This document shows, in pieces, positions 43,893 through 48,660 of a DNA stretch of 48,660 bases. The notes below the pieces were generated by a model. The model ran no database searches, had not been told where the DNA came from, and was given only the letters and a program-made list of their open reading frames with translations. This DNA is from Bacillota bacterium (GTDB lineage: Bacteria; Bacillota; Limnochordia; Darwinibacteriales; JAAYFS01). The translations under genes and the position numbers were made by a program. Numbering within the stretch: the stretch's first letter is position 1; the number at the start of each line of letters is the position of its first letter. The stretch covers positions 1 through 48,660 of the forward strand of contig JAAYFS010000045.1 of NCBI GenBank assembly GCA_012728115.1, in the 5' to 3' direction.

Positions 43893-44077
43893 TGATGAAA
43901 AGATCGATATTTGAGTGACGAACATTCCAGATAGCTAAGGATCATTCTTATCAGCATGAATTTAGCAAAATTGTTCTGTTTTAATACAATGAACCTTTAA
44001 ATTAGATAGTTATATCTAGATTATTCCACATTCTTAGTTAGAAAGCTTGAGGGCGACGGGAATCTAGGTGGGGAGAG
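43893..44077. other. Intergenic region before the ABC exporter remnant
   Basis: 185 bp, A+T rich, without a gene. TTAGCA (43962-43967) and TACAAT (43985-43990) with 17 bp between could be an old promoter of the decayed exporter. No terminator stem is evident after the methyltransferase gene. Confidence 0.4.
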
Positions 44078-44822
44078 ATGGCTAGCGTAACTGATAACCT
44101 CTTTAGAGTTTCATTTCGAACACTTATATTGATGTGGGTTTTATTCCCCTTCACTCTAATTGGATTAATTACTTTGGTCATCTTTCGTGATATTTATCCA
44201 CCGTTAGAACTAAATATTTTTCGTCACCTGATCGATTTATTAAGCACAAATTAGGATGCTTTATCTGTGGTATATAAATTAATTGCGGTAATGCTAATTG
44301 GACGAGTTCTTGGGTATTTAGAATTGAATTTGATGCATATCCCAGAAATTAAGTTAAAACATACGCTCAATGAAAAGTTAATGGATTTATCGTCGCGTAC
44401 TCCTCTTATTTATCTGGAGGATATGATTTATTACGATCGTTTACATAAAGCGAAACAAATAGTTGACGGTGATGTTTTGCATTCATTACTTTATGATTTT
44501 GTGGTGTGCTTCAAAGTATAATTTCTTTAGGTATCTATATCGGCATTCTATCTGTTTTAGGATGGCCGATTATTTTTTTCGCTTTAACCGTTATCCCCAA
44601 AGTTTGGGTTCAAGTTAGAATGAACCAGATGAAATATGGATACTATCTGCAATCCACATTAGCGGAACGACGGGCATGGTGCTTATTAGAACTCCTTGCG
44701 TTATGATGGTTTTCTATGCGCGTAAAATAGTTGAAGTTGGTACATATCAAGAGCTGATGGCGAATAACGGATTATATGCCGAAATGTTTAGGAGCCAGGC
44801 TCAGTGGTATAGTTCAAGTTAA
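44078..44822 (+). pseudogene. Decayed ABC exporter (membrane plus ATPase type)
   Basis: ATG 44078, with GGTGGGGAGAG before it, opens a membrane-domain start (TDNLFRVSFRTLILMWVLFP, then FRHLIDLLSTN). TAG at 44252-44254 stops it, but the same frame goes on: VVYKLIAVMLIGRVLGYLEL, LNEKLMDLSSRTPLIYLED and YYDRLHKAKQ, as in ABC exporters. Near 44505 the frame shifts by one base and continues as LQSIISLGIYIGILSVLGWP and YYLQSTLAERRA. Then almost the whole ATP-binding domain is missing: after 44706 only its very end remains (KIVEVGTYQELMANNGLYAE, stop 44820-44822). So there is one nonsense codon, one frameshift and one large internal deletion. No Walker A, signature or Walker B motif remains; it cannot work as a transporter. 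Confidence 0.85.
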
Positions 44823-45193
44823 CTTGATGGGACTTTTTAAGAAAGCAGTGAATGGGAAGGGTCGGTTTTGTGAACAAAGGAATTACGAATTTCATAATGA
44901 TGTTCTTCGCGAAGCGCACTAAGCATTAAGTTCAATTTGATTATGGAGTGAAAGCGTCAAAAAACTCAACTTTTGAGAAAAACGGGATTTTTTAACGCAT
45001 AAATTTTTCAATAATATAACCTGATAGCTCGTACCTTTTTGAGGATGTGAGAAGGAATTCACATATATTCTGTGGAATGATAAAAAAGATTTAATGCAAA
45101 TATTTTGCCAGCGGGCATTTTGCTCCAACTTGTTATTTTGTTTGTGAAAATTCCCCTAAGTGTTAATTAGGGATTCCTGGGAGGGTGATAATT
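44823..45193. other. 371-bp gap between the ABC remnant and rnfC
   Basis: No convincing gene. A 19-codon frame starts at GTG near 44871, but nothing supports it. A CCCTAA/TTAGGG hairpin (45154-45159 with 45167-45172) lies just before the rnfC binding site, and a short stem followed on the minus strand by T residues lies near 44960-44975. I see no near-consensus promoter for the rnf operon, although one must lie here or upstream. Confidence 0.5.
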
Positions 45194-46519
45194 TTGAAAG
45201 CTGTAACGTTTCCTCGTGGTGGTAGTGATATTCCCCATCGAAAGGGAGCTACGGATAAAAAACCGATCGTAGTCTTGGATGCACCAGAAGAAGTGGTAAT
45301 TCCGCTTCAACAACATATCGGTGCACCTTGCGAACCAGTTGTATCCGTGGGGGATCGAGTTAAGCTCGGTCAAAAAATCGGCGAAAGTAGCGCTTTTGTT
45401 AGCGCTCCTATTCATGCAAGTGTTTCTGGAGAAGTGATTGGTGTTGAGGAAAGAACCTTGCTTGATGGTCGAAAAGTAAGATGTGTTGTGATTAAGAATG
45501 ATTTCAAGGATGAGTTGATCGAGGGCGGACAAAAAAGACGACTCGACCAAGTCAGCGCCGAAGAAATCCGTGCGATTGTGAAGGAAGCTGGGATAGTGGG
45601 AATGGGAGGCGCTGGGTTCCCAACGCATGTGAAGATTGCTCCTCCTAAGCCTGTCGATACAGTAATCATTAATGGCGCCGAGTGCGAACCTTACTTAACT
45701 GTAGATCATCGCTTAATGGTTGAACGGGCTGAAGAAATGATCTTTGGCTTGCGGGCAATTATGAAAGCCGTAGGTGCTAATACTGGAGTAATTGGCATCG
45801 AGGTTAATAAACCAGATGCAATTGCGAAAATGAAAGAGTTAATTAATTTGGATCAGCGTCTAAAGGTGGTTCCTTTAAAGGTCAGATATCCACAGGGTGC
45901 TGAAAAACAACTTATTAAAGCAGTTAATGGTAGAGAAGTTCCTTCGGGAGCGTTGCCCTTAGAAGTTGGATGTATCGTTAGTAATGTTCATACAGCTATT
46001 GCTATTAGCGAGGCGATTACGAACGGTATTCCTTTGTATCAAAGGGTAGTTACTGTGAGCGGTAAATGTGTTGCCGATCCACGTAATATCCTAGTGAGAA
46101 TTGGAACTCCATTAAAGAACTTGCTAGATTTTTGTGGAGGTTTACTGGCCGAACCAGCTGTGATCGTTGGTGGTGGACCAATGACTGGACCAGCGGTAAC
46201 AACTCTTGATTCTCCAGTAGTGAAGAATCTATCGGGAGTTTTATTCCTAGCGGAAGATGAGATCGCTCTCGATGAGAACAGACCGTGCATTAAGTGTGCC
46301 CGTTGCGTAGATGTTTGCCCAATGGGACTTACCCCGAATATGCTTGGACTATTAAGTAGTCTCGGCAAGGTTGAGCAGGCCCAGAAGATCCACCTGATGG
46401 ATTGCATCGAATGTGGTCTTTGTTCCTACATTTGCCCTTCACGTCGAGGCTTAGTAAATTGGATCAAGGCGGGTAAGCAAGAACTAAATGCTAGAAGAGC
46501 GAAAGAAAGAGCGGTTTAG
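45194..46519 (+). CDS. rnfC: Rnf complex subunit C
   Basis: RnfC is a peripheral subunit of the ion-pumping ferredoxin:NAD oxidoreductase; it binds FMN and NADH and carries two [4Fe-4S] clusters. About 441 residues. The N-terminal barrel-like part (FPRGGSDIPHRKGATDKKP) is followed by the flavin and NADH region (GMGGAGFPTHVKI, INGAECEPYLTVDHRLM, GAEKQLIKA) and two cluster motifs, CIKCARCVDVCP and CIECGLCSYICP. TTG 45194 follows GGGAGGGTGAT. The next gene begins 11 bp later. Usual order is rnfCDGEAB; the E, A and B genes would be beyond the window. Confidence 0.95.
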   Translation: MKAVTFPRGGSDIPHRKGATDKKPIVVLDAPEEVVIPLQQHIGAPCEPVVSVGDRVKLGQKIGESSAFVSAPIHASVSGEVIGVEERTLLDGRKVRCVVIKNDFKDELIEGGQKRRLDQVSAEEIRAIVKEAGIVGMGGAGFPTHVKIAPPKPVDTVIINGAECEPYLTVDHRLMVERAEEMIFGLRAIMKAVGANTGVIGIEVNKPDAIAKMKELINLDQRLKVVPLKVRYPQGAEKQLIKAVNGREVPSGALPLEVGCIVSNVHTAIAISEAITNGIPLYQRVVTVSGKCVADPRNILVRIGTPLKNLLDFCGGLLAEPAVIVGGGPMTGPAVTTLDSPVVKNLSGVLFLAEDEIALDENRPCIKCARCVDVCPMGLTPNMLGLLSSLGKVEQAQKIHLMDCIECGLCSYICPSRRGLVNWIKAGKQELNARRAKERAV

Positions 46520-46530
46520 GGGGGAGAAAC

Positions 46531-48660
46531 ATGGCGAAATTAGCAGGGCCGTTTTTAAGGACTGATGATACTATTGAACGAATTATGCGCGATGTCCTAA
46601 TTGCCTTAGTTCCAGCCTTAATTGCAGGAATCATTTTCTTTGGACTTCGGGCGTTGCTTGTTGTTTTGATAGCTACTGTTTCAGCAATTGTTTGTGAAGG
46701 AATTTTACTTAGAAAGAAACTTACTCTTAAAGATTTCTTTGGTGATGGAAGTGCCGCGGTTACTGGGGTATTACTTGGCTTAATTCTACCTCCAGGTGTA
46801 GCTTGGTGGGTACCAGTGGTCGGTTCTGTGCTAGCAATAGCATTGGGCAAATTGGCCTTTGGTGGATTAGGTAGTAATATCTTTAACCCAGCACTAGTGG
46901 GTCGGGCAATTTTATTACTAGGTTTCACTGCTTCGATGGTAGTTTTTACTCAACCATTTGATACAGTTACTACTGCAACACCACTCTTTACGATGCGGAA
47001 TTTTGATTGGTCTTTAGTATGGGGAAATGTTGCTGGAAGTATCGGCGAAACATCGGTGATCGCTATCTTACTAGGTGCCATTTTCCTCTTTATCAGAGGA
47101 CATATTGAGTGGAGAATTCCCGTTGGTTACATCGGTGCAGCATTTGTATCAGCCCTTCTTTGGGGACTGGATCCATGGTTTACCATTACCGCAGGAGGTC
47201 TTTTGTTTGCAGCTTTCTTCATGGCGACAGACATGGTAACCTCGCCAGTTACACCAATGGGAAGATTACTTTTCGGTATTGGTTGTGGCTTCTTAACAGT
47301 TTTTATTCGTCAGTTCACCGTTTTCCCTGAGGGTGTGACTTTTGCCATTCTAGTGATGAATGCGGTTGTCCCACTTCTTGATAAATTAACCATACCTTTA
47401 AAATTTGGATTTGGTGCAGCAAGAGAAGTCCGTTTTAGAACCACCGTAGTTGCAGTGGTAATCATTGCCCTCACATGGGGTGCTTCTGCGCTAATCGGTA
47501 AGTATACTGATGATGGAAAGCCAGTGGTTGCATTAGGAACAGTTCTTCCAATAGCTGAGTATTTAGGAACTGTTGATTATGTCGTTGAGCAATTTAAAGA
47601 TGTCACATACTATGTGGCTTATCAAGACGATGCAATAGTTAAAGCTGCCTTTACTGGTCAGTCAACAGGATTTAATGGTCCGATTCATTTCTTCCTTGTT
47701 GTCGATGGTGATGGAGTAATTGAACATGTGTCAGTACTAGCTCATAAGGAAGACCCAGGTTTAGGCGCTAGAATTACTCAAGTTGGATTCCTCGAACAGT
47801 TCATTGATAAAGATGTTAATAGTGCATTAGTGATATCAGATGATATCGAAGGTTTAACAGGTGCAACTATCTCGTCAAGAGCTTTTGCAAGTGGTGTTAG
47901 ACGTTCGTTAGAGAACTTCTATTCCGCGTTTTACGGCAGTGATGAAGAAGTTGGTGGATGGGCAGATGGAAATTATACTGCAACCGTTCAAAGCTTTGGT
48001 GGACCTTTGACTGTTGAAGTTGAGGTAACCAACGGCGCAATTTCTTCGGTTACTGTGGTAGAAAATAGTGATACTCCAGTGATCGCAGGACCTGCAATTG
48101 ACACTATTCCTAAACGGATAGTTGAGGCTAATTCTTATGAAGTGGAAGCGATCAGTGGTGCAACTGTTACTTCTGAAGCGATTATGAAAGCTGTGAAGAA
48201 TGCTTTAACAACACAATCTGACGATAATGCAGAAGTAGCTGAAGAATTAGCTGAAGGAAAGAAGCCATTTGATGTTCAAGTAGGCGATGGCGAGTATGAA
48301 GGAGTTGCTGATAGCTTTGGCGGTCAAATGACAGTTAAAGTAAAGGTAGAAGGTGGTAAGGTAGTAGATATCACTGTAGACCATACCGATACTCCATTTG
48401 TCGCTGATCCAGCCATCAAACGTCTTGTTCCAGCTCTAATCGAAGAACAAGGTTATGTAGATGCAATTTCGCAAGCGACTGTAACCTCAACTGCATTATT
48501 TAACGCAGTTGAAGATGCATTAACAGCAAAAGACAGCGGCTCCAAGCCATTTGATGTTCAAGTAGGCGATGGCGAGTATGAAGGAGTTGCTGATAGCTTT
48601 GGCGGTCAAATGACAGTTAAAGTAAAGGTAGAAGGTGGTAAGGTAGTAGATATCACTGTA
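46531..48660 (+). CDS. RnfD-RnfG fusion with tandem FMN-binding domains (partial, runs off window)
   Basis: From ATG 46531 (AGGGGGGAG before it) the frame is open for 710 codons to the window end. Residues 1 to about 297 are RnfD, a polytopic subunit (SNIFNPALVGRAILLLGF, FMATDMVTSPVTPMGR, VVPLLDKLTIPLKFG). Without a stop it enters RnfG: membrane segment about 306-323, then an FMN-binding domain with KEDPGLGARI and LTGAT446-ISS, whose Thr is the expected covalent FMN site. A second, short FMN_bind domain follows (about 475-560, ISGAT545-VTS), a third (about 578-662, ISQAT650-VTS, with Gln in place of Gly), and the start of a fourth at 672. RnfD and RnfG are normally separate, and RnfG has one flavin domain. 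In Rnf the G domain faces outward, so the extra domains should too. Confidence 0.9.
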   Translation, partial: MAKLAGPFLRTDDTIERIMRDVLIALVPALIAGIIFFGLRALLVVLIATVSAIVCEGILLRKKLTLKDFFGDGSAAVTGVLLGLILPPGVAWWVPVVGSVLAIALGKLAFGGLGSNIFNPALVGRAILLLGFTASMVVFTQPFDTVTTATPLFTMRNFDWSLVWGNVAGSIGETSVIAILLGAIFLFIRGHIEWRIPVGYIGAAFVSALLWGLDPWFTITAGGLLFAAFFMATDMVTSPVTPMGRLLFGIGCGFLTVFIRQFTVFPEGVTFAILVMNAVVPLLDKLTIPLKFGFGAAREVRFRTTVVAVVIIALTWGASALIGKYTDDGKPVVALGTVLPIAEYLGTVDYVVEQFKDVTYYVAYQDDAIVKAAFTGQSTGFNGPIHFFLVVDGDGVIEHVSVLAHKEDPGLGARITQVGFLEQFIDKDVNSALVISDDIEGLTGATISSRAFASGVRRSLENFYSAFYGSDEEVGGWADGNYTATVQSFGGPLTVEVEVTNGAISSVTVVENSDTPVIAGPAIDTIPKRIVEANSYEVEAISGATVTSEAIMKAVKNALTTQSDDNAEVAEELAEGKKPFDVQVGDGEYEGVADSFGGQMTVKVKVEGGKVVDITVDHTDTPFVADPAIKRLVPALIEEQGYVDAISQATVTSTALFNAVEDALTAKDSGSKPFDVQVGDGEYEGVADSFGGQMTVKVKVEGGKVVDITV
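48262..48378 (+). repeat. Tandem repeat copy 1 (FMN_bind domain 3)
   Basis: This 117-bp segment is identical, base for base, to 48544-48660. The distance between copies is 282 bp, or 94 codons, so the frame is kept. It encodes the start of an FMN_bind domain (KPFDVQVGDGEYEGVADSFG). Identity at silent positions points to a recent duplication or to gene conversion. Confidence 0.97.
48544..48660 (+). repeat. Tandem repeat copy 2 (FMN_bind domain 4), cut by window end
   Basis: Identical to 48262-48378 over all 117 visible bases, and still identical where the window ends, so the true repeat is longer and there may be more copies. See the fusion gene starting at 46531. Confidence 0.97.

Follow-up and report, generated by a model that had tools for sequence, protein, structure and literature searches.

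The window, i.e. the whole 48660-nt stretch of DNA that was analysed (the entire contig C35 of a genome of 1.95 Mb in 66 contigs), ends inside a gene of a second, paralogous Rnf cluster, which the genome carries beside a canonical copy. The unusual part of this second Rnf is the absence of rnfB, together with the loss from its RnfE and RnfA of all four cysteines that bind the membrane [2Fe-2S]. As far as the residues lost and kept can tell, one half of the Rnf electron path is removed and the RnfC-RnfD-RnfG half is intact. The best explanation, and one that we hold to be probable, is that deletion of the ferredoxin branch left a one-way path from NADH through RnfC, RnfD and RnfG into a periplasmic chain of flavins.

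The fused gene and its continuation

The features found at the right end of the window are listed in Table 1. The product of rnfC scored 527 bits against TIGR01945 (cut-off 246). The fused frame starts after a gap of 11 nt; its product matched PF03116 over residues 6-293 (E 1e-99), FMN_bind (PF04205) in three stretches (E 1.6e-44) and the rnfD model TIGR01946 (272 versus a cut-off of 207), while the rnfG model TIGR01947 gave 100.4, just below its cut-off of 102. These matches bear out the initial annotation, which had read RnfD, RnfG and further FMN_bind domains in one frame, and the motif sites that it had picked out (TGAT with T446, SGAT with T545, SQAT with T650, then the start of another domain) were all recovered. 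The Pfam search did not find the NqrF-type NAD-binding domain PF00175 in the fused protein. The predicted structure of the RnfD-RnfG part had a mean pLDDT of 61 and was left out as evidence on domain contacts. The ~1.2 kb 5' of rnfC (43900-45150) held no clear gene, but short overlapping frames resembling a broken ABC-exporter gene.

Table 1. Features of the divergent Rnf cluster at the right end of the window
Feature	Coordinates	Strand	Remarks
rnfC of the divergent cluster	45185..46519	+	Complex1_51K (NADH/FMN), RnfC_N, SLBB, two 4Fe-4S sites; Pfam
Fused rnfD-rnfG-(FMN_bind)n	46531..48660	+	ATG start, stop-free to contig end, 710 aa
RnfD part, residues 6-293	46546..47409	+	PF03116; best solved relative 7zc6 chain D, E 5e-72
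Thr174 codon in GSIGETS, expected covalent FMN site of RnfD	47050..47052	+	invariant 15/15 in the order
RnfG membrane helix, residues 298-325, abutting the RnfD C-terminus	47422..47505	+	hydropathy peak 305-323; low-confidence model helix 298-325
RnfG FMN domain, residues 363-463	47617..47919	+	expected flavin threonine T446 in TGAT, 47866-47868; T446 invariant
Added FMN_bind domain 1, residues 471-561	47941..48213	+	SGAT, T545 at 48163-48165
Added FMN_bind domain 2, residues 579-669	48265..48537	+	SQAT, T650 at 48478-48480; best solved relative 8p2b (covalent-FMN domain)
Added FMN_bind domain 3, start only, residues 673-710	48547..48660	+	interrupted by contig end
117-nt exact direct repeat	48262..48378 and 48544-48660	+	assembly breaks in second copy

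The contig stops at 48660 because its last 117 nt duplicate 48262-48378 exactly. Contig C1, read on its reverse strand, starts within this terminal repeat (exact overlap of 24 nt) and carries, in order, a partial FMN_bind domain, a full one, a stop codon, rnfE (198 aa) and rnfA (184 aa), followed by comEA-, comEC- and holA-like genes. From the 24-nt overlap, the shared repeats and the gene order seen across the order, C35 and C1 most likely adjoin. The initial annotation had left open what lies past the window: most likely the gene runs on through two further FMN_bind domains to its stop codon, with rnfE and rnfA behind it. The joined gene would therefore encode at least five FMN_bind domains (that of RnfG and at least four further ones), with the repeats between the contigs uncounted. 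In relatives with unbroken contigs, rnfC is followed by fused rnfDG with its repeats, rnfE, rnfA and then similar downstream genes. A cluster devoid of rnfE and rnfA, considered for a time, was rejected when the divergent pair was found on C1.

The RnfD-RnfG junction was found in a single stop-free frame in 29 of the 37 genomes of the order, that of the window included; of the other eight, one is truncated by the end of its contig, four contain fragments and three lack it altogether. An assembly error as the source of the fusion was rejected on this count: the stop codon or frameshift between RnfD and RnfG that, in the initial annotation, would have exposed such an error did not appear in these 29 genomes. 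The dN/dS values of rnfE and rnfA, computed for pairs allowing a dS estimate, were 0.04-0.17, i.e. similar to or slightly above those of rnfC and rnfDG. Being below 0.2, they led us to reject a pseudogene as well. Throughout the order, the divergent cluster is conserved, and purifying selection acts on it.

The relatives have one to five FMN_bind domains beyond that of RnfG, with a total of six in one unbroken frame in G033; a 1289-aa frame in G032 was left out of the domain counts for the run of N within it. Most relatives have SGAT throughout. In the window's genome, added domain 1 has SGAT, and added domain 2 and both domains on C1 have SQAT. In their aligned parts, the SQAT repeats share 84-94% of their DNA letters with one another, but only 54% with added domain 1, which suggests that one SQAT unit was copied recently. 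ApbE recognises D-x-x-[S/T]-G-A-[S/T], and a Gly to Ala change lowered flavinylation to about half (PMC12052999); since the repeats have SQAT rather than SGAT, their flavinylation is uncertain in this genome. Of the several covalent flavins foreseen by the initial annotation, the motifs thus give good support only to those on RnfD, RnfG and a single added SGAT domain.

Two other kinds of multi-flavin protein were noticed. On contig C22 of the same genome, a gene resembling two-flavin PplA (L086:2320-3918) encodes one FMN_bind domain and, after it, two long repeats that end in TAAT and SGAT motifs; its N-terminus is broken by stops in the assembly, and counterparts with 76-78% identity occur in 3 of 44 relatives. 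In L215 (G119) and L120, where the cluster includes RnfB, RnfG is a protein of its own, 469-485 aa long and carrying roughly four flavin motifs, which is the multi-flavinylated kind already published.

Losses and retentions in the divergent cluster

In the standard Rnf, electrons pass from ferredoxin to RnfB, to the [2Fe-2S] of RnfA-E, to the FMN of RnfG, to the FMN and riboflavin of RnfD, to RnfC and finally to NAD+. In the solved complex, RnfA and RnfE give two cysteines each to one membrane [2Fe-2S], which is reduced by RnfB (PMC12174285). Cysteine positions were set by alignment to the solved chains 7zc6_E (RnfE) and 9eri_A (RnfA). None of these cysteines was present in any of the 17 RnfE and 16 RnfA readable in fused RnfB-less clusters; among RnfB-containing clusters, both were present in 43 of 47 RnfE (a single one in the remaining four) and in 45 of 45 RnfA. 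Where the canonical RnfE has IGLCPVLG and AVNCIVLG, the divergent one has IGLVPAIG and VVYGFGLL; for RnfA, LGICPFIG and TTNCAILG are replaced by LGLFALTR and LLNTAIVG. Both divergent proteins exceed the PF02508 cut-off and fall short of the NCBIfam ones (90.6 versus 213.4 for rnfE, 78.2 versus 229.3 for rnfA). The rnfB gene was missing from the fused cluster in all 15 intact loci examined. 

A lesser loss was observed in Clostridium magnum, C. luticellarii, Acetobacterium paludosum and Ca. Dichloromethanomonas (L099, L122, L142 and L145): there the second [2Fe-2S] cysteine of RnfE is gone (IVVFAIIL for VNC), the cluster has RnfB, and three of the four ligands are left.

The other half of the path is retained. 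All eight Fe-S cysteines are present in 30 of 30 RnfC of the fused type, as are the NADH/FMN motifs GMGGAGFPTH and INGAECEPYLT; T174 of RnfD and T446 of RnfG are invariant within the order, where the gene order rnfC-rnfDG-rnfE-rnfA is also conserved. Outside the order, one RnfB-less member from a Spirochaetaceae MAG (L098) has GEVS for the GETS of RnfD, and with this Val the covalent FMN site seems lost.

The canonical copy lies on contig C12, as a normal rnfCDGEAB cluster followed by apbE; the sole RnfB and the sole ApbE found in the genome are both there. The initial annotation had raised the question of whether rnfE, rnfA, rnfB and an ApbE gene accompany the fused gene: the first two most likely do, on C1, and the last two occur only at the canonical cluster.

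Distribution, phylogeny and cell envelope

The order is common in biogas plants and has been proposed to include syntrophic acetate oxidisers (PMC11932165, PMC11844248). The rnfCDGEAB operon has been reported as the Rnf of one such species, and the part of that report consulted (PMC11844248) does not mention a second Rnf. Another relative in the order, Peptococcaceae bacterium 1109, is assigned by GTDB to family DTU010 of class Limnochordia (PMC8225771). 

The RnfB-less type extends to other phyla. Halanaerobium saccharolyticum (L091) has a fused RnfDG, RnfE and RnfA without any Cys, and no RnfB in this cluster; its genome additionally has a strong canonical-type RnfE/A pair. Two spirochaete MAGs (L093 and L098) have RnfC and fused RnfDG, with, in L093, a barely recognisable, very divergent RnfE-like gene. 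The genome of L093 (G062) also has two divergent RnfE/RnfA-like pairs, on contigs C27 and C185, but lacks a strong canonical one. Quick trees of RnfC and of RnfD, with SH-aLRT values and no bootstrap, each separate the fused RnfB-less type from the rest by a single branch (SH-aLRT 95). Two origins of this type (two changes, with an AU rejection) were discarded, since that result came from counting a gene cut at a contig end (L123) as canonical.

The fusion has a different distribution from the loss. Among the matches listed in an even sample of 299 genomes of the phylum, single-frame RnfD-RnfG was present in the window's order and in one other family (G103), the latter with RnfB present and the cysteines intact. 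RnfB-associated fusions were also found in the same class (L079 and L083, and L080 with an rnfB gene nearby). The RnfD-RnfG fusion probably arose several times; the loss of RnfB and of the [2Fe-2S] ligands is seen in one clade only. Yet another divergent Rnf type was met in L080 and L081, from single-contig genomes of the same class, in which RnfD and RnfG are fused, the NADH domain of RnfC is degraded and RnfD is without GETS.

Omp85/BamA was above its cut-off in 13 of 13 genomes tested, and the cells very probably have an outer membrane. Halanaerobium and the spirochaetes have one too. The Omp85 result implies that the added FMN_bind domains should lie in the periplasm, so that the flavin chain, which the initial annotation had put outside the membrane, is probably periplasmic and not outside the cell.

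Electron path, alternatives and relation to known systems

With RnfB and the [2Fe-2S] ligands gone, only the NADH-RnfC-RnfD-RnfG arm would be able to carry electrons. They would pass from NADH to RnfC, to the riboflavin and FMN of RnfD, to the FMN of RnfG and then, along one to five further periplasmic FMN_bind domains, to an acceptor; the cofactor-less RnfE and RnfA would be retained as structural, possibly ion-conducting, subunits. The outward electron conduit suggested from the letters alone is therefore the best reading, RnfB being absent, the [2Fe-2S] ligands gone and RnfC and RnfD intact. The fusion suits it. RnfD has ten membrane helices and its N-terminus is taken as cytoplasmic; its C-terminus would lie on the same side and the RnfG helix would lead outward, so that the fusion should be topologically sound. 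In a normal Rnf, the gap of some 35 A that separates RnfA-E from RnfD is crossed by movement of RnfG (PMC12174285); tethering RnfG to RnfD makes sense because, without the [2Fe-2S], it would not need to swing to RnfA-E. Electron export from NADH would be downhill, given the midpoint of -184 mV of a comparable, triple-FMN protein (PMC10339131).

As to the acceptor, no gene for one is present in the fused cluster, where the neighbours are housekeeping genes. Searches of the window's own genome found no FMN-linked fumarate-reductase-like (FAD_binding_2) enzyme and no clusters of CXXCH motifs, and a candidate carrier, the PplA-like protein, was present in no more than 4 of 45 genomes. Counting against the outward NADH path, electron transfer alone does not explain why RnfE and RnfA are kept under selection. 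A bolder version, possible but doubtful, would make the complex a heme-free, NADH-driven exporter, a stripped Rnf core whose flavin string bridges the diderm periplasm to the outer membrane or beyond, possibly ion-coupled via RnfD alone.

The anatomy of the complex is direction-neutral and Rnf is reversible (PMC12174285). Electrons could flow inward, driven by an ion gradient, from a reduced periplasmic or extracellular donor (e.g. a syntrophic partner) through the flavin chain, RnfD and RnfC to NAD+; the proposal that relatives within the order oxidise acetate in syntrophy (PMC11932165, PMC11844248) would fit. We consider this unlikely: reducing NAD+ with a flavin near -184 mV runs uphill, and a donor-oxidising partner is not encoded nearby. 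A little harder to accept is that the flavin string is a buffer storing electrons, or a sink reducing O2 at the periplasmic face and so protecting an anaerobe. A reduced multi-FMN protein does react readily with O2, its domains sharing one potential without directionality (PMC10339131), the repeat number is freely variable among relatives, and the acceptor searches were negative; however, neither role gives an obvious reason for an entire Rnf core to be conserved, SGAT persists in the domain strings of relatives, and purifying selection acts on the gene. 

It is very improbable that the fused cluster uses ferredoxin through an RnfB, or RnfA/E plus RnfB, borrowed from the canonical complex in mixed assemblies. 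A separate canonical RnfD does exist in most genomes of the order, and the window's own genome has the full canonical cluster, but the divergent clusters have their own RnfE and RnfA under purifying selection, these are without the [2Fe-2S] ligands that would take electrons from RnfB, and the canonical set already has an RnfD and an RnfG. Finally, a decaying duplicate or assembly artefact, to which frequent contig breaks within the repeats and the RnfE and RnfA scores far under the curated cut-offs might point, has next to no chance of being right and is already contradicted by the in-frame fusion in 29 genomes, the conserved synteny, the dN/dS below 0.2 and the single clade across phyla.

If the outward NADH path is correct, it suggests a haem-free electron route across the periplasm in uncultured bacteria of a biogas-plant order. 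The clade is a natural dissection of Rnf, with RnfC-RnfD-RnfG kept and the ferredoxin branch and [2Fe-2S] ligands removed, and shows in nature which Rnf parts are dispensable. Which subunit of Rnf/NQR moves ions is disputed, the candidates being RnfD/NqrB and an RnfA-E pair driven by the [2Fe-2S] (PMC12174285); whether the divergent complex pumps bears directly on this dispute.

No description of an RnfB-less fused Rnf type was found in the open-licence literature searched. The fusion itself was rejected as the novelty: the initial annotation had taken a modified Rnf acting as an outward conduit to be new, but by themselves the fusion and the added FMN domains are not, since RnfB-associated fusions exist in other lineages and multi-flavinylated RnfG has been published (PMC8238504). 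Fusions of the same kind, some with extra FMN domains, sit in otherwise canonical operons at L079, L083, L212 and L080; unlike the window type, the first three keep RnfB and the RnfE/A cysteines and L080 adjoins an RnfB gene, and L079 and L083 are on a separate branch of the RnfD tree. Compared with Rnf RnfABCDGE (7zc6, 9eri, 8ahx), the window type has homologous RnfC, D, G, E and A in the order C-D-G-E-A and keeps the RnfC and RnfD cofactor sites; it differs in being without RnfB and without the RnfE/A [2Fe-2S] ligands, in the fusion of RnfD to RnfG and in the extra FMN_bind domains. 

The tandem FMN_bind domains are similar to those of SaFMN3 and CbFMN4 (8p2a, 8p2b; PMC10339131), 8p2b being the nearest solved domain to the repeats; those two, however, are stand-alone membrane-anchored proteins, whereas the repeats of the window gene are part of an Rnf subunit. 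With multi-flavinylated RnfG and related proteins (PMC8238504, PMC10339131) the window type shares more than one FMN_bind domain on RnfG and a proposed side path to extracytosolic acceptors. In the published multi-flavinylated RNF class, RnfB is required in the cluster and the semicircular path is kept beside the outward one (PMC8238504); in the window type the semicircular path is broken and RnfD and RnfG form one protein. The Nqr/Rnf-like two-subunit systems (PMC8238504, PMC10979944) likewise have a proposed one-way path from NAD(P)H to an extracytosolic flavin and an RnfD-like next to an RnfG-like protein. In those systems RnfD carries a fused NqrF-like domain as the entry point of NAD(P)H and has lost its flavin Thr, and there is no RnfE/A, whereas the window type uses RnfC as its NADH module and keeps both the cofactor-less RnfE/A and the RnfD Thr.
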